Of a stretch of DNA of 64,000 bases, positions 4,844 to 51,330 are shown piece by piece. The notes beneath the pieces were generated by a model, which searched no databases, was not told the origin of the DNA, and saw only the letters and a program-made list of their open reading frames with translations. The translations under genes were made by a program, and so were the position numbers. This DNA is from Pseudolactococcus reticulitermitis (GTDB lineage: Bacteria > Bacillota > Bacilli > Lactobacillales > Streptococcaceae): assembly GCF_002260845.1 (NCBI RefSeq), contig NZ_BEDT01000004.1, positions 1 through 64,000 on the forward strand. Direction: 5' to 3'. Position 1 is the first letter of the stretch. Every line of letters starts with the position of its first letter.

Positions 4844-4895
4844 TTTACGCTACTTCCCTCAGTTTTATTATCTAATATTATATCACAAAACACAA

Positions 4896-4921
4896 AAAAA
4901 TCAGGCGTTCAGGCCTGATTT
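4896..4921 (-). terminator. Terminator after ftsH
   Basis: Stem ATCAGGC/GCCTGAT with a short loop, followed on the minus strand by seven T. It closes the rqcP-to-ftsH operon. Confidence 0.8.
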
Positions 4922-42729: not shown

Positions 42730-42802
42730 GCCTTCTTAGCTCAGTTGGTAGAGCAGTGGACTCTTAATCCATGGGTCGCAGGTTCAAGCCCTGCAGGGGG
42801 CA
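42730..42802 (+). tRNA. tRNA-Lys (CTT), integration target
   Basis: Acceptor GCCTTCT/AGGGGGC with two G-T pairs, anticodon loop CTCTTAA, discriminator A. The last bases are the core of attL, and the tRNA is intact, so the integrated island restored its 3' end. Confidence 0.95.
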
Positions 42803-42807
42803 TTAAA
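42791..42807. repeat. attL: attL core (tRNA-Lys 3' end)
   Basis: CTGCAGGGGGCATTAAA recurs exactly at 51280-51296, at the far end of the island. The adjoining integrase supports the att reading. Confidence 0.85.
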
Positions 42808-42841
42808 AAAAGGCTCTGCACGTTGGTGTAGAGCCTTTTCT
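42808..42841. terminator. Terminator for tRNA-Lys and for the integrase
   Basis: Stem AAGGCTCT/AGAGCCTT (42810-42817 with 42830-42837) with T-run on either strand. It was probably carried in by the island, since other tRNA-Lys-type terminators follow the att copies at 47.6 and 51.3 kb. Confidence 0.8.
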
Positions 42842-42842
42842 T

Positions 42843-44003
42843 TTATATTTTTGCCAAATTTTTGCCAAAACTACCCATAATTTTCTTGATTTTATCATTG
42901 CCAGCGTCCAATGTCTCCCTAAGTATATGACCATAAGTTTCTCTGATTTGAGTACTGTTTTTATGTCCTACTTGTTTAACAATAACTTCAATGTCTACGC
43001 CTTGGGCGAGTAAAACACTGATATAGGTATGACGTGTCCCATAAGGTGTGATAATTGGTGTAATGTTTAAGTCAGATAGATATTTTTGAATTGCCCGATT
43101 GATTTTATAATGTGATAAAATCTGGTTGTCGGGTTCTAAAAATACCATTTCTTTGTCCTCTACATCTCCATTAAGAGCTATACGGCTCTTTTTAAGGGTT
43201 CTAAAGGCTTTTATTGTTTCGTCATCTAACTGCACATATCGGATAGATTCAGGTGTTTTAGGTGGCACATACTTTTTATCCGCTAGAGAGTATCTACGAT
43301 AAGTGTAAAGTACCATTTTGTCAAAATTTATATCTTCCCAATTAACCGCAAGCGTTTCTGAAAGTCGCAGTCCAGTCTTAAACATAAGGTAGTAAAAGTA
43401 GGGTATCACACTGATTTTATAGTCAAGATGATTAGCTAAATAATCAAGTATTTTTTTATAATCTTCAATGCTTTCGATATATTTATCTTCTGCTTTTTTA
43501 GGTTGTTTACCTGCATTACGTTTATAACCCGCAGTAAAATCATCTATATATAATTTGTCACGAATAGCAAAAGCAACGACTTTTTTAATCTCATTATCAA
43601 GCCTTTTTAAACTATCTTTTCCGACATCTTTCCCGTAGTCATTCATTATCTTTTGATATTCACTAGGTTTTATTTTTGATACTTTTTGTCCGTCAAATAG
43701 TTTGGCAATTACTCTGCCATGACTTCTATACTTGTATTTTGTCCGTTCGGATAAGTTAGAGGGCTTGATTTCAAGGTCATACCACACTTGCCAAATATCA
43801 TGAACTGTACTTGAAAGATTGAGTTTACTACCACTGTCAAGTTCTAATCTTATTTTTTCGCCTGTTGCTTTGGCGATTTTTTTGGTTTTAAAACCTGATT
43901 TTGACAAAAGACGGACACCTTGATTATCTTTTATTTGAAAGCCATAGGTTAAGCCTTGCTTTCCTTTGTATTTGGTGTAATTGATTGATACCATATTAAG
44001 CAC
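42843..44003 (-). CDS. int: Tyrosine-type site-specific integrase
   Basis: 386 residues. N-terminal AP2-like arm-binding domain (about 5-50, YGFQIKDNQGVRLLSKSGFKTKK), SAM-like core-binding domain (about 65-160), catalytic domain with R in GLRLSETLAVNW (about 213), H-x-x-x in GTRHTYISVLL and final GHKNSTQIRETYGHI with the nucleophilic Tyr. It integrates the island into tRNA-Lys. It reads out of the island toward the tRNA and overlaps the small upstream gene by 8 nt. Confidence 0.95.
   Translation of the reverse strand: MLNMVSINYTKYKGKQGLTYGFQIKDNQGVRLLSKSGFKTKKIAKATGEKIRLELDSGSKLNLSSTVHDIWQVWYDLEIKPSNLSERTKYKYRSHGRVIAKLFDGQKVSKIKPSEYQKIMNDYGKDVGKDSLKRLDNEIKKVVAFAIRDKLYIDDFTAGYKRNAGKQPKKAEDKYIESIEDYKKILDYLANHLDYKISVIPYFYYLMFKTGLRLSETLAVNWEDINFDKMVLYTYRRYSLADKKYVPPKTPESIRYVQLDDETIKAFRTLKKSRIALNGDVEDKEMVFLEPDNQILSHYKINRAIQKYLSDLNITPIITPYGTRHTYISVLLAQGVDIEVIVKQVGHKNSTQIRETYGHILRETLDAGNDKIKKIMGSFGKNLAKI
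42848..42870. promoter_or_regulatory. Left integrase arm-type sites (two TTTTTGCCAA repeats)
   Basis: TTTTTGCCAA twice, 11 bp apart, inside the very end of the integrase gene. The same doublet occurs at 51157-51180 near the right end, as expected for arm-binding sites of a tyrosine recombinase. Confidence 0.55.
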
Positions 44004-44187
44004 CTACTTCTAATTGAACACCTAGAATTTCTTCAACTACATTGACAGGTACTCGCCCCAATCGCTTATTATCATAGAATAGATAACCACGACTGATTAA
44101 GATTGATTTTGCTTGTGCAATGATTTTTCTTGCGGTTTCGCTTTGATAGCCTAGTGAGACTAGGTCTTGTCGTGTGATTGTATTCAT
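43996..44187 (-). CDS. Small DNA-binding protein, excisionase-like (DUF3173)
   Basis: 63 residues, MNTITRQDLVSLGYQSETARKIIAQAK then GRVPVNVVEEILG. Such winged-helix-like proteins precede integrase genes in Gram-positive integrative elements and are thought to direct excision. The end overlaps the integrase start. Confidence 0.7.
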   Translation of the reverse strand: MNTITRQDLVSLGYQSETARKIIAQAKSILISRGYLFYDNKRLGRVPVNVVEEILGVQLEVGA

Positions 44188-44189
44188 AC

Positions 44190-44618
44190 TTATTTACCTG
44201 CTTTCTCATCAGATTTTTTGACCTTGTTATCTACTACCAGTGAGACTGAATCTGCCAGATAAGACAAAGCCCCATTTTGACCAATATATGAGTTTCTCAG
44301 ATTATCAAATTTGATTTTGACATCATCTGAATCATAGAATTTTTCAATTGTCATGAGTGGGTTAATGCCATTGATTTTGACTGTTTGTGTTTTACGCTTG
44401 AATTTGCCGTCTAAGACTTTTACAGCGTACATATAACCAGTGATTTCATCCGTTTCTTTTGTCATGACATTCCCATTTTTATAAAATTGTTGGTTGCCAT
44501 TTTCATCTAGGTTGTCAACTTGATTAAATACAGGGTACAAATCAAGTAGTTCAAAGGTTGTACCGATATTATCTAAGTTAAAATCTTTTGCGTTAATAGT
44601 TAAATCTCTTTTTCCCAT
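44190..44618 (-). CDS. Island protein of unknown function
   Basis: 142 residues from ATG 44618 (MGKRDLTINAKDFNLDNIG); a GTG at 44639 would add seven. No signal peptide or membrane helix, and many Asp/Lys/Asn. I do not recognise the family. Its place between the Rep-like and excisionase-like genes recalls small conserved proteins of Tn916-like and IME modules. Two perfect or near-perfect hairpins (44665-44685 and 44690-44712) lie between it and the Rep-like gene. Confidence 0.6.
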   Translation of the reverse strand: MGKRDLTINAKDFNLDNIGTTFELLDLYPVFNQVDNLDENGNQQFYKNGNVMTKETDEITGYMYAVKVLDGKFKRKTQTVKINGINPLMTIEKFYDSDDVKIKFDNLRNSYIGQNGALSYLADSVSLVVDNKVKKSDEKAGK

Positions 44619-44721
44619 AATGTAATGCTTTCTAACCACTTTCCGTGGTATAATATATCTAGTGAATCGCTAATTTAGCGATTATTCAAGTAGGAATTGC
44701 CGTTCTTACTTGTCCGAAAGA

Positions 44722-45828
44722 CTAATCAAACTGACTGTTTGTGTCTTTTGTTTGGTGTTGGACTTGTTTAATCAAGTCCATTTTTTTATCCTTTGATAAA
44801 TCGTTCAGCTCTGCTAGATACTTGATAATCTCAGTAGCTAGGCTCTTTGAATATCTTGATTCCTCAATCAACCAATCTATTGGATATTGGTCGAGAGGGG
44901 CAGTCGTGATCTCATTGTCATAAAGGAATTGATACATTTTCAAGATTGGTAATGCTCCTTTTTGGATGAACCAGTTGATTTTATCTAAGATAGGGGTTTG
45001 TTTTTTAGAAATCTTGTAAGACCAAGCCTTTGTTTTTGACATGAGATGTCTCCAAAATTCTGGGCTGTAAAACTTTCCTTGTTTATCCAAAAACTTGATT
45101 TTACCCTTTAAGTACCCTTTATAAAAATCAAGTTCATTTTGTTCGGTCTTGATAATCTCTAGCCAAACGGCTTTAACATCATCTTGCCGAAACTCTGTTT
45201 CTGTTCGTATCCAAGACTTGACTGCCATATCTTCGGCTAAATCTTTTGGACGGATACCCAATTTTTTAGCTTGTTCAACTAACTTGTCATAAATTCGAGT
45301 TTTTTTAGTGCTGTCATCAGCGCCAAGGTATAACGTTCTTCCCGTGTAGTCATCCCCAAAGGGCTTGTAGAAAGTACTTCTACCATAGAGTAGTCGTCTT
45401 TTTTGACAATAGCTTAACAAGGTTTTAGGGGTGTAATAGGGTTTATCATTAAAATCATCAAGTCTCATATCAAGCCGTTTAGGGTCAATGAGTTGTCCAA
45501 AACTAGAATCTAAAAATTTGATATAGCTAAATTCAGTGATTTCCCAAAGGTCTAAATAATTATCCTTGTAGAACGACCAACCTGAACCAGAAAATTGAAC
45601 CATACAGGGTGTATCCGATTTTTCGGTAAAGTAGAGTTTAATTTCTCCATAAACCCAATATTTTTCATAATCATAGTATCTCAGGTTACCTGATTTTTCG
45701 ATGAATAATTCAGGTTCAAGTCCTAAAACATCATTGATAATGTTTTCGATTTTCATATCAATTTGAAATTGAACCCAATCCAGACCCGCTGTCAATTTGT
45801 TTTGTTTATCAATATCCTTTATAACCAT
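44722..45828 (-). CDS. Rep_trans family replication initiator / MobT-like relaxase
   Basis: 368 residues. Pattern of the Rep_trans family (pT181 Rep, Tn916 Orf20): AGLDWVQFQI at the N-terminus, PKRLDMRLDDFND, YGRSTFYKPFGDDYTGRTLYLG, KTRIYDKLVEQAKK and SWIRTETEFR near 210. The family nicks DNA at an origin. In small mobilisable elements such proteins act as relaxase (MobT) and may also drive replication. No other conjugation genes are present, so the island would need a helper. Confidence 0.8.
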   Translation of the reverse strand: MVIKDIDKQNKLTAGLDWVQFQIDMKIENIINDVLGLEPELFIEKSGNLRYYDYEKYWVYGEIKLYFTEKSDTPCMVQFSGSGWSFYKDNYLDLWEITEFSYIKFLDSSFGQLIDPKRLDMRLDDFNDKPYYTPKTLLSYCQKRRLLYGRSTFYKPFGDDYTGRTLYLGADDSTKKTRIYDKLVEQAKKLGIRPKDLAEDMAVKSWIRTETEFRQDDVKAVWLEIIKTEQNELDFYKGYLKGKIKFLDKQGKFYSPEFWRHLMSKTKAWSYKISKKQTPILDKINWFIQKGALPILKMYQFLYDNEITTAPLDQYPIDWLIEESRYSKSLATEIIKYLAELNDLSKDKKMDLIKQVQHQTKDTNSQFD

Positions 45829-45859
45829 TTCTCACCTCCTTTCATTGTCTAAGTGTCGT

Positions 45860-46115
45860 TTCAAAAAACCTTTTTAGAAATAGCAACCAGCCCATAAGTA
45901 GCAAGGGTTTAGTGGTTGTTTTAATTCCTAATAGCACATGGTGTTACAGGCATGTGCCAAATGAAATCCAGTCATCATTTCTTATTTGAGTAAGTGAACA
46001 CTTTTCACTTCGTCCGTCCGTCGATGACGATTTTTGGGGTCTAAGCGCTTTGTGCGCCGACCGCAAAAATCTATCTCAGCCGTACTCAAAAATTGCTCAC
46101 TTACTCGATAAGTTT
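45860..46115. other. Stem-loop cluster upstream of the Rep-like gene (candidate oriT/replication origin)
   Basis: No gene. Stem-loops: CAACCA/TGGTTG (about 45884-45918), GCACATG/CATGTGC (about 45944-45966), GATTTTTG/CAAAAATC (about 46029-46072), all inside a wider inverted repeat GAGTAAGTGAACA (from about 45988) and TGCTCACTTACTC (to about 46107). Such clusters next to a Rep_trans gene are typical of nick sites and single-strand origins, but the nick site is not identified. Confidence 0.5.
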
Positions 46116-46624
46116 TTTGATTTTCTTGTTCTCTGATAACTTATCAATCAAACCAGATAACTTGCTTTCAAGTGTATAAACCCGTTGACGGAGTTTGACA
46201 TTATCAGCAGATAAACTATCAAGCTCTTTCTTTAAAGCAATCAGAGAACGATTTGAGCGACCTATCACAGCTCTTAGAGCAAGTATAGAATCTTCTCTTT
46301 CTTCTTCCAACTGAGCGTTAAGGTCGCCCCAGACCGCTTTAATCGCCTTGTCAAGTCCTTTATCAGCAACCAATCTTGATGTCTGAACAAACTTTTCAAG
46401 TTCCTCTTTCGTAAAATCTGGCGCCCAATTATAGCCCCGTCCTCGACCGTAGCCGATAGGAATTTTACTGAACGAAAATTCATAACCCGCAAGCTCTGTA
46501 ATTTTCGAGCGCCACTTTTTGATAGTTGAGACGCTTTTATCAACTTTTTCTGAAACTTGTTTGTAGTCGATAGCATGACCTTTATTTTGGTTTATTTTTA
46601 TCAGAAACTTAATTTCTGGCTCAT
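46101..46624 (-). pseudogene. Frameshifted DNA-binding/coiled-coil protein of the island
   Basis: A coding-like frame runs from 46637 to 46101 (EPEIKFLIKINQNK, HAIDYKQVSEKVDKSVSTIKKW, then a coiled coil with SLSADNVKLRQRVYTLESKL) but holds no ATG, GTG or TTG until 46373. The only ATG with a ribosome site (AAGGA, ATG at 46624) is one frame away and reads eight codons to a stop. A single-base deletion near codon 3 would explain this. Helix-turn-helix at the front suggests a regulator or replication helper. A sequencing error or an ATT start are alternatives. Confidence 0.55.
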
Positions 46625-46785
46625 GTCGAGACTTTCCTTACTTTCAAACGGTTATTATACGCTTTGAAACTGTTTTCACAGTCTTTGCGTTTTCCCGAGA
46701 ACTCTATATCAATAGCACAGTTAGCGTGAGTTTATGGCTCGGCGAGATTGAGTAAGTCATCCGAAACGTTATCGGATATTTTGTG

Positions 46786-46843
46786 TTATAATGAAATTAC
46801 TTCAAATATAAGTAAACTACTTTTTGAAGTAATTTCATTATAA
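46786..46843. repeat. 21-bp perfect palindromic operator arms between divergent genes
   Basis: The arms (46786-46806 and 46823-46843) match perfectly over 21 bp, with a 16-nt spacer. Each carries TATAATGAAATTACTTCAA or its complement. Further half sites (TTTGAAGT at 46851, AACTTC near 46869) follow. It lies between the double-HTH repressor and the leftward genes, and overlaps -10 elements of both directions. Confidence 0.8.
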
Positions 46844-46865
46844 ACGTCTTTTTGAAGTTTGTCAA
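46837..46865 (-). promoter_or_regulatory. Consensus leftward promoter of the island
   Basis: Minus strand: -35 TTGACA (46860-46865), 17 bp, -10 TATAAT (46837-46842), a perfect sigma-A promoter. The spacer contains the operator half site AACTTCAAA, so the repressor can shut it. It drives the disrupted gene, Rep, and onward. Confidence 0.8.
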
Positions 46866-46921
46866 CTAAAAACTTCTTTTTGATGTATTTTGTTTTTTGT
46901 TCGATTTTTAAAGGAGACAAC

Positions 46922-47575
46922 ATGGCAACTTTTGCTGAGCGTTTAAAAGAATTGAGAAAAGAAAAAGGGCTAACTCAAAAAGAATTAGCCGAAAGGGTGG
47001 GCACGCAACAAGGCGTTTATACCAACTGGGAAAACGGTAAAAGAGAACCTAAATATGATAAAGTAGGGGAATTAGCAAGTGAACTAAAAACAACTTCTGA
47101 TTACCTCCTTGGATTTACTGATGAAAAAAGATTACCGATTTATTCATTGCGATTGATAGAACTTCGTAAAGAAAAGGGATTGAGTATAGACGAACTGACT
47201 AAAAGTACTAAGATTAAACCAGAACTCTATAAACAGTGGGAGACTGGCGAAAAATTTCCGGGTTTTTTTGCTATATTAAAACTATCCAAAAATCTAGATG
47301 TTACACCAAGTTACTTAATGGGGCAGACTAATTTTAAAACTGAAAATAGTAGAATTGATTCTGATAATGAAGTAGTAAAGAGAGAATTTTTTGAAGAAAT
47401 TCAAGCTATAAAAACATCAAAGGATGAAGATATAGTCATTAGAAAGTTAAATAATATCTTTGGTACTTTGATGCAAGCAGCAAAAAAAGTAGAAAAAAGA
47501 GAGTACTATGAAGCAGCGTTTGATTTTATATTTACATCACTTGATGAAATAAATGAAGAGCTAAAAAATAACTGA
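46922..47575 (+). CDS. Island repressor with two Cro/CI-type HTH domains
   Basis: 217 residues from ATG 46922 (MATFAERLKELRKEKGLTQKEL) with AAAGGAG upstream. An upstream start at 46859 would add 21 poorly fitting residues. Two HTH_3 domains in tandem (about 4-60 and 75-125: LIELRKEKGLSIDELTKSTKIKPELYKQWE), then an alpha-helical C-terminus, probably for oligomerisation. The operator arms in front fit autoregulation and control of the leftward promoter. Confidence 0.8.
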   Translation: MATFAERLKELRKEKGLTQKELAERVGTQQGVYTNWENGKREPKYDKVGELASELKTTSDYLLGFTDEKRLPIYSLRLIELRKEKGLSIDELTKSTKIKPELYKQWETGEKFPGFFAILKLSKNLDVTPSYLMGQTNFKTENSRIDSDNEVVKREFFEEIQAIKTSKDEDIVIRKLNNIFGTLMQAAKKVEKREYYEAAFDFIFTSLDEINEELKNN

Positions 47576-47613
47576 CTGTACTATAATCAAGTAATATAAA
47601 AATACATTAATAC

Positions 47614-47730
47614 TTGCAGGGGCGTTTAATATAGGCTTTGTATCGTTGATACAGGTATTTTTCTTATAACTTTTATATGATGAATAATCAAAAAATAGCT
47701 CAATTAATTTATAGTGTTGCACAGTACGAG
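47614..47730. repeat. Internal att-like scar
   Basis: TTGCAGGGGCGTTTAATATAGGCT followed by GTATCgTTGATACAG, TTTCTTATAA and ATAGCTCAATTAATTTAT repeats the right end of the island (51281-51420) with substitutions and a deletion. Shared content includes the att core, the tRNA-type terminator and flank. It separates the integrase half from the Rgg half and indicates two tandem insertions or an accreted island. Confidence 0.7.
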
Positions 47731-47813
47731 GGCTACAACACATCTGTTTTATAAACATAAAAGAATTTAGAAGTGATTAGAGATAAGTGGTTTTTTTAAT
47801 TAAAAAGATTGAT

Positions 47814-47987
47814 ATGTATTCGAAGATTTGTTCAAATTTTAGAAAATCTCGATTTGATGCGAGTTTGGTTTATTATTATATGGTTGATAACTGGGATGAC
47901 CATATGCCAGATGAGCAAGCTGGTTTAAATGACTTTGTTAAGTTTGCGACAGAGTTTAGGTTGAGAGTTAGTGAAAATTTAAAATAA
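47814..47987 (+). CDS. Short hypothetical protein of the island
   Basis: 57 residues from ATG 47814 (MYSKICSNFRKSRFDASLVYYY ... NDFVKFATEFRLRVSENLK). An earlier in-frame start at 47787 is possible. No ribosome site is strong. Unrecognised; acidic with many aromatic residues. It may be a remnant of a larger mobile-element gene. Confidence 0.4.
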   Translation: MYSKICSNFRKSRFDASLVYYYMVDNWDDHMPDEQAGLNDFVKFATEFRLRVSENLK

Positions 47988-48092
47988 TCGTAAGTTTTTT
48001 TATTATTCCTAAAAAATATATGTCTCAAGTTTTTTAGAATAACATGTTACAATAAATATGATATTATACAAATTTATGGCTGGGAGTAAAAT

Positions 48093-48968
48093 GTGACGAA
48101 AAAATCTTTTAACGATGAAACTAAATTCGATGTAGGTATGTTTTTTAAAGAGATAAGGCATACTCGGGGTTATACACAAAAAGATGCTGGTGGTAACTAC
48201 ATCTCTAAATCTCAGTTATCTCGATTTGAAAATGGGGATACAATCTTGACGGCTGAAAAACTTTATTATGCCATTACACAAATATCTATGACACCAAATG
48301 AATTTTTCAATGCTTTTAACGACTATAAACTTGATAGGATGCAAAAACTTTACTATACGCTTGATAATATCCAGTTATCATTAAAAGAAGGTATTGAAAA
48401 ATCAGAAGAGTTGATTACTAAATATCCAGATAGTAAATTTGAAAAATTATCAAACATTATGATAAAAAGTGTTTTACAAGACATAACAGGTAAGCGTTAT
48501 ATCACAAAAGAAGAATATTTGTTAGTTGGAGATTATCTTAGTGCAATTGACTATTGGTCAGAATTTGAGTTAAAGTTATTGTATTATACTTGTTTGATTT
48601 TGGATGAGGGAGATATTTGTTGGTTTTGGCAATTGGTAACGGATAGAGCTTGTCATTTTAATAAAGGGAATAATCAGAAACTGTTTTTAGCAACATTACT
48701 TAATATTTATGAGTTAACGGTTTTGGATCGTCAAAATATGAGTAATGCTAATATTTTCAGAACGAGTCTTCAAAATTTTATTGTAAATAAAGAACCGACT
48801 ATTTTGATGGTATTTACTATTGTGACTTATTTTCATGATTATTTGCTTGAAAAGACATCAAAAAATCGCAAAAAGATAGAAGATTACCTCAATGCGACAG
48901 AAATAGTTGGTGTTAAATATATGGCAGATTATTATCGTAGTCGTCTAGTTGCTTTAGATGAGAAGTAG
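48093..48968 (+). CDS. Rgg/GadR/MutR-type transcriptional regulator
   Basis: 291 residues from GTG 48093. HTH_XRE domain (about 10-68: FFKEIRHTRGYTQKDAGGNYISKSQLSRFENGDTILTAEKLYYAI) with the LSRFENG signature of Rgg proteins, followed by an all-helical peptide-binding region (Rgg_C, about 100-288). Rgg proteins are receptors for imported short hydrophobic peptides. The last 15 nt overlap, tail to tail, a 23-codon SHP-like gene on the other strand. It probably controls three promoters with a common box at 49086, 49409 and 49439. Confidence 0.88.
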   Translation: MTKKSFNDETKFDVGMFFKEIRHTRGYTQKDAGGNYISKSQLSRFENGDTILTAEKLYYAITQISMTPNEFFNAFNDYKLDRMQKLYYTLDNIQLSLKEGIEKSEELITKYPDSKFEKLSNIMIKSVLQDITGKRYITKEEYLLVGDYLSAIDYWSEFELKLLYYTCLILDEGDICWFWQLVTDRACHFNKGNNQKLFLATLLNIYELTVLDRQNMSNANIFRTSLQNFIVNKEPTILMVFTIVTYFHDYLLEKTSKNRKKIEDYLNATEIVGVKYMADYYRSRLVALDEK

Positions 48969-49025
48969 TAAAATCCATAATAGGAATAGATTACCAAATA
49001 TACGATTGAATGTTTTGATTTTCAT
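48954..49025 (-). CDS. SHP-like small hydrophobic pheromone precursor
   Basis: 23 residues: basic start MKIKTFNR, then IFGNLF and a strongly hydrophobic end LLWILLLLI. Shine-Dalgarno GGAGG (49033-49037) lies 7 nt before the ATG. Below the usual size cut-offs and so easily missed. Layout and composition (Lys/Arg at the N-terminus, hydrophobic C-terminus, next to an Rgg gene) are those of SHP pheromones, whose C-terminal eight to ten residues act as the signal after Eep cleavage. The sequence is not one I know, and the Asp/Glu and GG common in SHP2/SHP3 are absent. Confidence 0.7.
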   Translation of the reverse strand: MKIKTFNRIFGNLFLLWILLLLI

Positions 49026-49053
49026 TTTGTAACCTCCATAAGTTTATAAATTA

Positions 49054-49100
49054 ATTTTAACTTCAAAAATACTAAATTTTAAAAAGTTGCATATATGCGC
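49054..49100 (-). promoter_or_regulatory. Rgg-box promoter A (SHP-like gene)
   Basis: Reading the minus strand: GCGCATATATGCAAC (49086-49100), 26 bp, -10 TAAAAT (49054-49059). The -35 position reads TTAAAA, poor, and sits 3 nt after the box, as for activator-dependent promoters. Start would be near 49047, giving a leader of about 22 nt. Confidence 0.75.
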
Positions 49101-49156
49101 ACTAAAGTTTATTTAAAATTGGTAGATAATCCTTTGATTATAAGGTTTTCGAATAT

Positions 49157-49188
49157 GTAAAAAGAGCATAATTTTTGTCATGCTCTTC
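49157..49188 (-). terminator. Terminator after the 24-residue peptide gene
   Basis: Stem AAGAGCAT/ATGCTCTT with TTTTT on the minus strand. A second small hairpin (CCCC/GGGG, 49198-49215) precedes it. Confidence 0.75.
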
Positions 49189-49243
49189 CTATTCAATCCC
49201 CGTTATGTAAAGGGGGCAGTGAAATGAAATCACTATTTTTTAA

Positions 49244-49318
49244 TTAATGTTTTGCAACCCAATAGATTACACCGCCAATAATAACTTTTGTAGCAAAGAT
49301 TCCTAAAGCCAATCCCAT
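49244..49318 (-). CDS. 24-residue hydrophobic peptide, possible bacteriocin or signal
   Basis: Starts MGLALGIFATKV, ends VIYWVAKH. AAGGAGG (49327-49333) is a near-perfect ribosome site, 8 nt before the ATG. The peptide is amphipathic and positively charged, with no leader or double-Gly cleavage site. It is followed by a terminator and preceded by the same box promoter as the SHP-like gene. It could be a leaderless bacteriocin or membrane-active effector controlled by the Rgg, or a second pheromone. Its function is unknown. It is below the size cut-off of most gene finders. Confidence 0.65.
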   Translation of the reverse strand: MGLALGIFATKVIIGGVIYWVAKH

Positions 49319-49376
49319 AATGTTATCCTCCTTCTTTTAATGATATTGTAAATTGTTCGAACTACTTTACGAACAT

Positions 49377-49423
49377 ATTTTATCACTAAAAAAATCTATT
49401 TAGAAAAGGTTGCATATATGCGT
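49377..49423 (-). promoter_or_regulatory. Rgg-box promoter B (24-residue peptide gene)
   Basis: Minus strand ACGCATATATGCAAC (49409-49423), 26 bp, -10 TAAAAT (49377-49382) preceded by TGA; -35 TTCTAA is poor. Same geometry as promoters A and C. An inverted GTTCG/CGAAC (49355-49374) lies downstream of the -10. Confidence 0.75.
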
Positions 49424-49438
49424 ACTATTTTTATGTAA

Positions 49439-49483
49439 GCAGATATGCAACTTTTTAAGATTGATGATTTTTAAGGTTAAAAT
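49439..49483 (+). promoter_or_regulatory. Rgg-box promoter C (ABC transporter)
   Basis: GCAGATATGCAAC (49439-49451), 26 bp, -10 TAAAAT (49478-49483); -35 TTAAGA. It faces promoter B, so boxes B and C form a divergent pair 16 bp apart. It reads into the 13-codon frame and the ABC transporter genes. Confidence 0.75.
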
Positions 49484-49506
49484 ATAAATCTATAAAGGAA
49501 CATAGA

Positions 49507-49548
49507 ATGAAAAGAAAAGATGATGGATTATTTTACGAATACGAATAG
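49507..49548 (+). CDS. 13-codon leader ORF before the ABC transporter
   Basis: MKRKDDGLFYEYE with AAGGA 8 nt upstream. Too short to call on its own, but it is the first frame after promoter C. It may be a leader peptide or chance. Confidence 0.3.
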   Translation: MKRKDDGLFYEYE

Positions 49549-49584
49549 CTTTAAATAATTTACAAAGAGAATCGAGGTTTTGAA

Positions 49585-50421
49585 ATGAGCAAAATGATTG
49601 AATTACAACATGTAACAAAAAAATTTAACGATAAAAAAGCATTATCAGATATTAGTTTTTCAGTATCTGAGGGAGAAATATTTGGTTTTCTTGGACCGTC
49701 TGGTGCTGGTAAGACGACGACGATTAATATTTTAACTGGGCAATTAGTTCAGGATAATGGACAGGCTTTTATTTTAGGTAAAAATGCAAAGGATATTTCC
49801 GCTAATGACCTTTTAAATATTGGCTTCATGAGTGATACGGTTGGTTTTTATGAAAAAATGTCACTCTATAAAAATCTAGAATTTTTTGCTAGATTTCATC
49901 ATGTTTCGACTGAAGTACTTGATGATTTGTTAAAAGCTTTAGATTTATATCAAGATAAGGATAAAAAGGCTGAGAATTTATCAACAGGTATGAAACAAAG
50001 ATTATTCTTGATCCGTGCCATTCTCCATACGCCGAAAATCTTATTTTTAGATGAGCCAACTTCTGGATTAGATCCAACTTTATCGCAAAAAGTGCATGAT
50101 ATTTTGTTTGATTTAAAAGAAAAAGGGGTGACGATATTTTTAACAACGCATGATATGAATGAAGCGACTAAAATTTGCGATAATATTGCCTTATTATATC
50201 AAGGCAATATTATTGAGTATGGTGCACCACAAGCTATCATTGACAAATATAGTGATGAAAATAAGGTCGTGATTAGATTCCAAAATGGGAAAGAAATAAC
50301 TGTTCCTAAAGAGGAAGTTGCTAACTATCTTGGACAATATGTAGTCAGTATTCATACCATGGAATCATCTCTGGAATCTATTTTTATACAATTAACAGGA
50401 AAGGCGTTTACAAATGAATAA
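49585..50421 (+). CDS. ABC transporter ATP-binding protein
   Basis: 278 residues. Walker A GPSGAGKTT (about 38-46), signature LSTGMKQRL (about 136), Walker B ILFLDEPTSGLD and H-loop TTHDM. C-terminal extension of drug/lantibiotic immunity-type ATPases. The stop overlaps the permease ATG by 8 nt. Ribosome site GAGG. Under promoter C, it should be induced with the small peptides, so export or self-immunity is the natural guess. Confidence 0.9.
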   Translation: MSKMIELQHVTKKFNDKKALSDISFSVSEGEIFGFLGPSGAGKTTTINILTGQLVQDNGQAFILGKNAKDISANDLLNIGFMSDTVGFYEKMSLYKNLEFFARFHHVSTEVLDDLLKALDLYQDKDKKAENLSTGMKQRLFLIRAILHTPKILFLDEPTSGLDPTLSQKVHDILFDLKEKGVTIFLTTHDMNEATKICDNIALLYQGNIIEYGAPQAIIDKYSDENKVVIRFQNGKEITVPKEEVANYLGQYVVSIHTMESSLESIFIQLTGKAFTNE

Positions 50422-51124
50422 AAAAGATAGATTAAAAAGTTTGATTTGGCTTAGAACACAATACTTGAAAAGCAATAAAGCTTTGTTGTATATATGTGTT
50501 GGGACGCCTATTGGTGATTTTGCTCTTCTATCTCTTATACCTAAATTTCACGGCAGTATACTTCTTTTAAGTTTTGCTTTAAATTTTGTATATAGTATGA
50601 CATCAGGTTCTTTTGTATCGATGATGATTGGAGAAGAAAAGGAAAAGAAAAATTTAAGAACATTGATTCTAAGTGGTGTCAAGATGCAGGAATACATTTT
50701 TTCTATTATTTTCTATCCTTTTCTATTCTCTATTTTTACTTGTATATTTTTCCCAATATTTTTTGGAGTAAGCATACCAAGTTGGCCTATTTATCTTATC
50801 ATTGCAATCTCAACATCTTTAATATTTATCCTAGCAAATTTATCAATTGGTTTATTAGCTAAAAGCCAAATGCATGCCTCTTTATTTACTTTTGGAATTG
50901 TTATGGTTGCAACATTTCTACCCATGTTAACAGATTTTTCGAATATTAAACCAGTAAAATACATAATAGATTGGTCATTTATTAGTGCTAATACCGAGTA
51001 CTTTATTAAATTGGAACATTTCAAAATAACAGATATTAGTATTATAAGTATGCTATTATGGATTGTAGGGTTATTTATTTTAACTCAATTTGCTTTTGCT
51101 TGGAATAGAAAAGAACATGATTGA
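50414..51124 (+). CDS. ABC-2 type permease
   Basis: 236 residues with six hydrophobic helices (about 23-45, 48-72, 95-125, 130-155, 160-180 and 210-230). Partner of the preceding ATPase. Size and composition match ABC-2 exporters or immunity pumps of bacteriocin clusters. A+T is high, unlike the nearby core genes, which fits acquired DNA. Confidence 0.8.
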   Translation: MNKKDRLKSLIWLRTQYLKSNKALLYICVGTPIGDFALLSLIPKFHGSILLLSFALNFVYSMTSGSFVSMMIGEEKEKKNLRTLILSGVKMQEYIFSIIFYPFLFSIFTCIFFPIFFGVSIPSWPIYLIIAISTSLIFILANLSIGLLAKSQMHASLFTFGIVMVATFLPMLTDFSNIKPVKYIIDWSFISANTEYFIKLEHFKITDISIISMLLWIVGLFILTQFAFAWNRKEHD

Positions 51125-51156
51125 TAAATAAAGTTTTGTCAATTATAGAAGAATTA

Positions 51157-51180
51157 TTTTTGCCAATTTTTTTGCCAAAA
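51157..51180. promoter_or_regulatory. Right integrase arm-type sites
   Basis: TTTTTGCCAA twice, 12 bp apart. It matches the doublet at 42848 at the other island end, and lies 100 bp inside the right att core. This indicates that the Rgg/ABC half belongs to the same recombining unit. Confidence 0.55.
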
Positions 51181-51279
51181 ATAAAAAAATGTAGTAGAAT
51201 TAGTTCAAATAAAAGAACCCAAATGCCTTTCTAATGCGTAAGTTTTCTGTATAAAAGTGTTGAATACGATGCTTTTTAT

Positions 51280-51330
51280 CTGCAGGGGGCATTAAATATA
51301 GGCTCTGTATCATTGATACAGGGTCTTTTC
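51280..51330. repeat. attR: attR core with native tRNA-Lys terminator
   Basis: CTGCAGGGGGCATTAAA (51280-51296), identical to attL, then a hairpin (GTATC/GATAC with flanking pairs) and TCTTTTC. This is probably the original tRNA-Lys terminator displaced by the island. Confidence 0.85.

Follow-up and report, generated by a model that had tools for sequence, protein, structure and literature searches.

In group III Rgg/SHP systems, the pheromone gene shp is convergent with rgg and overlaps it (PMC13361665). These systems have been reassigned to MutRS (PMC12445099, PMC13234698), in which the MutS precursor is MLKTILKRIISLALVLPFFLLPIL (PMC12445099). In S. salivarius, the layout scuR-sptA-sptB-sarF brings together an ATP-binding cassette (ABC) transporter pair and two regulator genes whose products are 82% identical (PMC6703854); SptAB has been called bacitracin-like, and the native inducers of ScuR and SarF are not known (PMC12998947). 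In the LCP/RopB system of Limosilactobacillus reuteri, an ABC transporter is induced by a short peptide together with an Rgg-type regulator (PMC10518010), and the gene cluster of the circular bacteriocin raffinocyclicin, the precursor of which is WP_031366965, includes a regulator named RafR (PMC11409674). We analysed a stretch of 64,000 nucleotides of Pseudolactococcus reticulitermitis (contig NZ_BEDT01000004.1, positions 1 to 64,000, hereafter the window), which carries at 48093-51124 a cassette made of an Rgg-type regulator gene, a 23-codon pheromone-like gene, a 24-codon gene and a two-gene ABC transporter. We lean towards reading it as a quorum-sensing-controlled mini-bacteriocin cassette, in which the 24-residue peptide would be a leaderless antimicrobial and the ABC pair its exporter and/or immunity pump.

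Layout of the cassette

A first-pass annotation of the window, made from the letters alone, had described this five-gene cassette, and both its coordinates and its description were right: rgg, the two small genes, the ATPase gene and the permease gene all lie within the 48093-51124 interval of contig 4 (genome of 2.17 Mb). The features on which the comparison rests are the following.

48093..48968, + strand: rgg, Rgg/MutR-family transcriptional regulator, 291 amino acids (aa), GTG start (Pfam and NCBIfam models; L. chungangensis orthologue)
48954..49025, - strand: shp/mutS-like pheromone precursor gene, 23 aa (Shine-Dalgarno GGAGG; L. chungangensis counterpart)
49244..49318, - strand: gene for a hydrophobic, cationic, leaderless peptide of 24 aa, proposed antimicrobial effector (Shine-Dalgarno AGGAGG; counterparts elsewhere)
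49585..50421, + strand: ABC transporter ATP-binding protein, 278 aa, SptA-like (PF00005; 52% identity to the ATPase of L151, a scuR-sptAB-sarF-like locus)
50414..51124, + strand: ABC-2-type permease, 236 aa, SptB-like (35-36% identity to the L151 permease)
49089..49098, - strand: Rgg box GCATATATGC of the shp promoter (-10 TAAAAT at 49059-49054)
49412..49421, - strand: Rgg box GCATATATGC of the 24-aa peptide promoter (-10 TAAAAT at 49382-49377)
49439..49448, + strand: Rgg box GCAGATATGC of the ABC promoter (-10 TAAAAT at 49478-49483)
49348..49373, - strand: start-site element TTCGTAAAGTAGTTCGAACAATTTAC, starting 3 nt past the -10 of the 24-aa peptide promoter
49160..49187, - strand: likely terminator hairpin 3' of the 24-aa gene, AGAGCAT/ATGCTCT followed by a T run (read from the sequence)

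The 23-codon gene is convergent with rgg and overlaps its 3' end by 15 nt, the promoters of the 24-codon gene and of the ABC genes stand back to back, and the Shine-Dalgarno sites of both small genes are strong. The hairpin at 49160..49187 was not listed by a terminator scan; its inverted repeat recurs in L. chungangensis.

A switch of the group III type

The regulator combines the helix-turn-helix (HTH) and the Rgg C-terminal helical domain of the Rgg family (RRNPPA): it scored 62.2 bits with PF21259 Rgg_C (cut-off 27), 56.3 bits with TIGR01716 (cut-off 36.9) and 21.4 bits with HTH_3, just below the cut-off of 23, and its best sequence match in the PDB was 7zcv (E 2.7e-18). L. chungangensis carries all five genes, arranged as in the window, with an Rgg orthologue 80% identical, a permease 80% identical, a 24-aa counterpart of the 24-mer and a pheromone gene of 22 aa in which the C-terminus NLF..WILL of the 23-mer is conserved. 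The 15-nt overlap between rgg and the pheromone gene is also present in both species. At E 1e-30 or better, relatives of the window Rgg were found in 8 of 335 Streptococcaceae genomes, all belonging to this genus (in the Rgg tree, the row L026 corresponds to another protein family and was ignored).

A search of the same 335 genomes with the MutS peptide retrieved four loci (E 1e-8 to 0.005), all of them streptococcal and all with a bacteriocin gene above curated cut-offs, the types being cyclic gassericin A-like, uberolysin-like, aureocin-like and type-A lantibiotic. One of these loci, L230, holds near mutR and mutS a gene for an aureocin-like leaderless bacteriocin of 44 aa (1033-1167, - strand; PF11758, 70 bits). 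The cassette shares with the group III/MutRS systems an Rgg regulator, a pheromone gene convergent with rgg and overlapping its 3' end, a pheromone with a basic N-terminus and a hydrophobic C-terminus, a distance of 30 nt between CATATWTG and the -10 (a pattern found at one promoter in each of the four MutS-linked loci) and, in those systems, associated antimicrobial genes. It differs from them in its target, an SptAB-like ABC pair and the 24-mer with no recognised bacteriocin, and in its regulator, the clade of which was found, among the 335 genomes, in this genus only. Judged from gene topology, pheromone style and promoter spacing, the switch is thus not of a new kind but matches group III Rgg/SHP (MutRS), and that it works like these systems is well supported by comparison.

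The clade of the window Rgg includes a RafR-type Rgg encoded on an L. raffinolactis plasmid (L033; 43% identity), whose neighbour is the raffinocyclicin precursor, a 64-aa protein. At this locus we observed a perfect dyad, GGAATATATTCC, centred 34 nt from a -10-like TATACT on one side and also 34 nt from TACAAT on the divergent side; the scan tried distances of 32-36 nt only, with a loosely defined -10. A 12-codon open reading frame (ORF), MFPILNIWFWWS, with a strong ribosome site (4859-4897, - strand) overlaps the rgg of this cluster at its 3' end, and another, MFNLANIWWWGF, also with a strong ribosome site, lies directly behind an interrupted rgg in L042 (5373-5411, - strand). Both are candidate pheromone genes. 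Neither the dyad nor the 12-codon ORF of L033 is mentioned in the accessible part of the raffinocyclicin account (PMC11409674). The cluster thus resembles the cassette in its regulator and in a bacteriocin-promoter dyad 34 nt from the -10, and differs in having a circular bacteriocin of 61 residues and a different ABC transporter (PMC11409674), and in its pheromone candidate of 12 aa. The LCP/RopB system is also unlike the cassette in that its signal is an 8-aa leaderless peptide encoded divergently from ropB, with no second peptide mentioned in the accessible part of its description (PMC10518010).

These pheromone candidates bear on the idea that the 24-aa peptide is itself a signal, either a second pheromone or the true Rgg ligand, exported by the ABC pair. 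The 24-codon gene indeed stands under the same box as the pheromone gene, and Rgg and ComR proteins typically respond to ligands that are short and hydrophobic peptides (PMC13361665, PMC6703854). However, the convergent 23-mer already fills the pheromone position, the 12-codon ORFs occupy the same or a similar position at two related rgg loci, and SHPs are exported by another transporter, PptAB (PMC9765709). Moreover, several relatives of the 24-mer (S. salivarius plasmid L032, S. parasanguinis L052) adjoin ABC genes without an Rgg/ComR-like gene in the examined stretch. We consider a signalling role of the 24-mer distinctly unlikely.

Three promoters with the same box in register

The first-pass annotation had noticed a box common to three promoters and equally spaced from the -10 in each, which our analysis bore out. 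The motif GCAKATATGC is present at 49098-49089 (-), 49421-49412 (-) and 49439-49448 (+), and all three promoters consist of CAKATWTG, exactly 30 nt including a T-rich tract, and TAAAAT, with weak -35 hexamers. In its 17-nt form, GCAKATATGCAACYTTT, the box recurs exactly at three sites of the 2.17 Mb genome, and all of them fall inside the cassette. Allowing one mismatch added no site, a second mismatch added five and a third added 20 (28 in total, against 12 for the reversed sequence up to three mismatches). The pattern of box, 30 nt and -10 matched three times in the window, compared with five matches over 200 Markov resamples of the whole window (at most one each) and 14 over 5000 resamples of the local 3.3 kb, none with two or more. 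The triple occurrence is therefore not due to chance.

All three boxes are kept in the L. chungangensis cassette, that of the pheromone gene with one further change. In 1.2 Mb of collected loci, a redundant set, the only occurrences of CAKATWTG-30 nt-TAWAAT were those of the two cassettes (window and L. chungangensis) and a single one at each of the four MutS-linked loci; at the mutS operon promoter of L229/L230, the distance from the dyad centre to the -10 was 33 nt and not 34. Box-like GCA motifs in L013, L014 and L030 were rejected as belonging to other Rgg paralogues with their own dyads.

A start-site element at the promoter of the 24-codon gene

The element TTCGTAAAGTAGTTCGAACAATTTAC was found, with at most three mismatches, in 5 of 328 genomes of the family, all of this genus. 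Its consensus, TTKGTAARTTAGTTYGAACRAYTTAY, occurred at 21 places in the 12 genomes of the genus, nine of which have the element, whereas the reversed control occurred once. An rgg match lies within 3 kb at 18 of these 21 loci (a partial one in one case); the others are two copies in G011, 1.1 kb apart in one neighbourhood, and a copy near a contig end. The link to rgg is partly built in, because the consensus was drawn from Rgg loci, and the new information of this survey is that few copies exist elsewhere. The window genome has two copies. One is at the promoter of the 24-codon gene, and neither is at the pheromone or ABC promoter; the second copy (G000:C1:562310-562335) adjoins another rgg and has no obvious gene behind it.

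Upstream of the element there is usually a locus-specific dyad, located 34-35 nt from the -10 in 17 of 25 contexts (31 were listed, of which six with 5-6 mismatches were set aside). In the remaining eight the distance was 37-48 nt, and the automatic choice of the dyad or of the -10 often looks wrong there. Among the products encoded 3' of the element are a member of the lactococcin-972 family (83 bits for a cut-off of 32) and one of a TOMM bacteriocin family (47 bits for a cut-off of 33), the latter behind a more diverged copy of the element, as well as small secreted-looking proteins without family, MFS-type transporters and larger proteins. From this distribution we take the element as a probable mark of effector transcripts in Rgg systems, and its presence at the 24-mer promoter, and not at those of the pheromone or the pump, is the best argument for the 24-mer as the product of the cassette. 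The leader RNA of the 24-mer folds little better than shuffled sequences (z of -0.89 for the window leader and, for the L. chungangensis leader cut in two ways, of -0.33 and -0.42), so we do not claim an RNA switch, and the element may act as DNA.

The ABC pair belongs to the SptAB family

The permease family is widespread, with members in 132 of the 335 Streptococcaceae genomes at E 1e-15. Several of these adjoin regulators that look ComR-like, and all four such regulators that were scanned matched ComR_TPR. In L151, recognised as scuR-sptAB-sarF-like by its layout, the ABC pair lies between two ComR-like genes 83% identical to each other. With the L151 ATPase as query, the window ATPase was the best of 58 matches in this genome, with 305 bits compared to 143.5 for the next, and the window permease is likewise homologous to its L151 counterpart (its match to PF12698, 25.3 bits, is under the cut-off of 31.6). 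By homology of both proteins, the cassette pair thus belongs to the SptAB family, whose substrate is not known. The adjacent regulator is of the PF21259 Rgg type, without a ComR_TPR match at E 0.001, so control by a ComR-like protein was not found here.

The cassette and the ScuR/SarF-SptAB system therefore have in common the transporter family, an RRNPP regulator, a dyad, a T-rich spacer and a near-fixed distance to the -10 (PMC6703854). They differ in that the regulators of the latter are ComR-like and no short coding sequence was seen beside scuR/sarF, whereas the cassette holds both a pheromone gene and an effector-like peptide gene. A reading of the locus as a defence system by PADLOC (ATPase matching several ATPase models, best mad3 with 97 bits; Rgg marginal to two HTH-type models) was set aside as generic domain similarity, and 278 pattern matches of the permease profile in viral contigs included no relative.

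Relatives of the 24-residue peptide

Divergent peptides of 23-27 residues are encoded upstream of the ABC genes in the window, L. chungangensis, G008 (same genus), an S. salivarius plasmid, S. parasanguinis, S. hyovaginalis, G206 (with a peptide identical to that of S. hyovaginalis), G109 and G247. When aligned, they share an initial Met, residues that are small or hydrophobic, a Lys close to position 10-12 that is replaced by His in G008, and a stretch rich in V/L/I; most have an aromatic pair, and only the S. salivarius peptide lacks a basic end. With a profile of five streptococcal peptides as query, the 24-mer came out on top of the 1035 small ORFs in the window (E 0.021); two of 1000 residue shuffles of it scored as well, compared with 9 for the L. 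chungangensis peptide and 16 for that of G008. Conversely, a profile of the three lactococcal peptides placed the S. parasanguinis peptide first of 496 ORFs from five streptococcal loci (E 1e-5, 0 of 1000 shuffles), the shuffles scoring as well per 1000 being 15 for S. salivarius, 113 for G109 and 868 for S. hyovaginalis. A joint profile gave eight strong matches in the 335 genomes, all next to an SptAB-like pair, and nothing else at E <0.02. It was built from peptides found by neighbourhood, and seven of the eight matches are its own rows and the eighth is identical to one, so its value lies in the absence of other matches. In these searches, relatives of the 24-mer were thus found only beside SptAB-like pairs.

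The 24-mer matched no known bacteriocin family, with no Pfam match and, among NCBIfam models, one sub-threshold match to a sorting signal (E 0.097). In being Met-initiated, leaderless, cationic and encoded beside ABC genes, it resembles the aureocin A70-type leaderless bacteriocins, which have ABC immunity or export, and the staphylococcal PSM/Pmt system, although the leaderless bacteriocins known to us are all longer than 24 residues. For the Pmt transporter, the PmtA model gave 113.6 bits, under its cut-off of 350.

In a permease tree of 51 rows (the window and 50 hand-chosen loci of the 92 surveyed; midpoint root, several long branches, rows not independent), the divergent peptides occurred in 9 of the 24 rows of one half and in none of the 27 rows of the other, whereas arrays of mini-peptides downstream of the ABC genes occurred in 5 of these 27 rows and in none of the 24. 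The labels "div", "mini" and "none" were assigned by us from a small-ORF survey, "none" meaning that this filter found none; two loci that do have one or two such ORFs, L152 and L156, kept the label "none" and fall in the mini-array half, and L134, in which no peptide was found and which is close kin of L133 by genome-wide score, was left out. The small-ORF surveys list only ORFs with a Shine-Dalgarno-like site, and the main one, covering 92 redundant loci (91 with a permease match, some genomes being present through two collections), also required at least 55% of hydrophobic residues. The arrays consist of two to five hydrophobic ORFs of 15-23 codons with ribosome sites (L061, L034, L145, L148 and L158), those of L061 and L034 standing beside ComR-like regulators, and reach up to five unlike hydrophobic mini-peptides at 4849-5478 of L061 (S. 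mitis), downstream of SptAB-like ABC genes. They may be unannotated peptide products.

A related arrangement is visible in L133 and L135, where the stretch separating a divergent 27-mer gene from an SptAB-like ABC pair holds an inverted repeat of 36 bp, ATTTTTGACCATGACATGTATGTCATGGTCAAAAAT, whose 17-nt arms match perfectly; in L135, a gene that by its appearance is ComR-like stands upstream. Because of this gene, the repeat may be a single operator driving both directions, and apparently the same peptide-plus-pump layout is found here under another RRNPP family.

Loss of the peptide and alternative roles

L. laudensis-type loci lack the 24-mer gene and the beginning of the pheromone gene but keep the ABC promoter and genes, and the 3' half of the pheromone gene survives there as a remnant of the same C-terminus. 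This form occurs with a complete rgg in the metagenome-assembled genome contigs L047 and L048. In L. laudensis itself (L051), the cassette behind proS is incomplete and occupies the same position in the chromosome. In S. vestibularis (L053), a stop codon interrupts the peptide gene next to an intact ABC pair. The loss of the peptide with regulator and pump retained, and the broken peptide gene beside an intact pump, fit a retained immunity. The ATPase reading frame of L111 is open.

These losses also weigh on the possibility that the 24-aa peptide is not secreted but serves the ABC transporter in the membrane, as a small accessory subunit or as its regulator. Transporters with small membrane subunits are known, and the peptide is a single hydrophobic helix whose relatives are confined to one transporter clade and whose gene was found, in the surveyed loci, only next to ABC genes. 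The transporter would then handle something else, such as cell-envelope antibiotics, SptAB having been called bacitracin-like (PMC12998947). This seems unlikely to us, since the 24-mer gene has its own promoter, box and likely terminator, and shares its start-site element with other Rgg-linked transcripts that partly encode bacteriocins. In addition, the ABC genes remain intact after peptide loss at the L. laudensis-type loci and in S. vestibularis, and up to five unlike mini-peptides in S. mitis L061, from the other permease clade, suit products better than subunits.

A further alternative is that the 24-codon ORF is untranslated, or a self-toxin of type I-like systems, the conserved unit being RNA or DNA. 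The ratio of nonsynonymous to synonymous substitution rates (dN/dS) over the 24 codons is indeed not low (0.32/0.45), and the 26-nt element at the start site is strongly conserved. Yet the 24 codons show no indel, and the start, the stop and the Shine-Dalgarno are kept; a weak sequence match links the peptide to the streptococcal ones, and the leader RNA folds little better than shuffles. We regard this alternative as very improbable.

Mobile surroundings

The first-pass annotation had placed the cassette in a mobile island, and its surroundings agree: an integrase gene (42843-44003, Phage_integrase) and a Rep_trans protein gene adjoin it, copies of a 28-nt repeat are present, and the insertion site lies between proS and an aminotransferase gene. 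The repeat copies at 42791 and 51280 are 93% alike, and a weaker copy at 47613 is 68% alike. In the corresponding region of a relative, G004 (L223), we found a single copy in the examined stretch and about 1 kb between the flanks. The remaining features are the following.

51300..51326, + strand: terminator-like hairpin 3' of the ABC genes (terminator scan; one found against a shuffle mean of 0.9, weak alone)
51280..51307, no strand: copy of the 28-nt repeat that closes the cassette on the right (further copies at 42791-42818 and 47613-47640, the latter weaker)
49507..49548, + strand: 13-codon mini-ORF in the ABC leader (length and sequence not conserved)

The integrase, the Rep_trans protein and small genes at 42791-47640 are flanked by copies of the 28-nt repeat, the inner one weak. 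As this unit is bounded by the repeat, the cassette (47613-51307) may be a second unit stacked on the integrative element behind proS. The 13-codon mini-ORF ahead of the ATPase gene was dropped as a cassette part because it is not conserved. The nearby rseP, proposed at first as an Eep homologue maturing the pheromone, adjoins proS outside the cassette; we read its proximity as a coincidence of the insertion behind proS.

Discussion

In the mechanism that we propose, the 23-aa gene would encode the pheromone precursor, the hydrophobic C-terminus of which (about NLFLLWILLLLI) would be exported, trimmed, re-imported by an oligopeptide permease and bound by Rgg, by analogy with Rgg/SHP and ComRS biology. 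The loaded Rgg would then bind the GCATATATGC dyad, centred 34 nt upstream of the -10, at the three promoters, turning on its own pheromone gene in a positive feedback as well as the 24-aa peptide gene and the ABC pair. Being ready-made, without leader, the 24-aa peptide could span the membrane once and act as a leaderless antimicrobial, and the SptAB-like pair would export it and/or clear it from the producer's membrane, thus providing immunity. The circuit had been proposed in the first-pass annotation and is well supported by comparison, through the conserved overlap, the pheromone C-terminus, the three boxes in register and the spacing of the MutS-linked loci. That earlier account had the peptide and the pump turned on by the switch, which stands, without assigning them a role; we infer an antimicrobial activity of the 24-aa peptide, and the evidence suggests an effector linked to one clade of SptAB-like transporters.

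Several observations weigh against this mini-bacteriocin reading. The window Rgg shares no more than 24-26% identity with MutR from two MutS-linked loci (L229/L230), so that by regulator homology its membership in MutRS in the strict sense is only possible. The peptide homology between genera is weak, only the S. parasanguinis peptide being clearly recognised among the five streptococcal ones, and in G008, S. parasanguinis and the S. salivarius plasmid the stretch that separates the peptide gene from the ABC genes showed neither such a box nor a strong dyad. In the same genus, G001 and G006 have the ABC pair with neither peptide nor rgg alongside. Of six element-linked proteins scanned, two passed a bacteriocin model, one was below the cut-off and three gave nothing useful. 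As some of the transcripts encode transporters and larger proteins, the element would mark Rgg targets and not strictly bacteriocins. Finally, the helical moment of the 24-mer is low (0.09), unlike typical amphipathic antimicrobial helices; a PSM-like reading was discarded for the same reason, PSMs being amphipathic.

The first-pass annotation had called the cassette apparently undescribed. This goes too far for the switch, which is of the group III/MutRS type, and for the ABC pair, which falls in the SptAB family, whereas the 24-residue peptide does appear new. We found no description of such a peptide beside SptAB-like transporters, nor of the start-site element, in the open-access literature, most subscription papers being outside this scope. 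The peptide class and its coupling to the pump thus look new, the switch and the pump being of known kinds.

More broadly, and tentatively, since we find the following generalisation possible but on balance doubtful, the SptAB-family transporters present in 132 of the 335 genomes might be dedicated exporters or immunity pumps for overlooked leaderless single-helix peptides of 15-27 residues under RRNPP quorum sensing, one clade with divergent 23-27-mers and the other with arrays of 15-23-mers. If this were true, orphan copies such as ScuR/SarF-SptAB of S. salivarius would eavesdrop on their neighbours and raise immunity in response to the signals of these; this would account for the lack of any pheromone gene found next to them. 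The cassette itself offers a concrete candidate substrate for SptAB-like transporters, which are frequent in streptococci and have no known substrate, and gives the ScuR/SarF-type systems a testable ecology opposing peptide producers to listeners that keep only the pump. The promoter grammar itself (dyad, near-fixed spacing, -10 and start-site element) could serve to locate other Rgg targets in this genus, and perhaps in streptococci, and could reveal peptide genes too short to be annotated.

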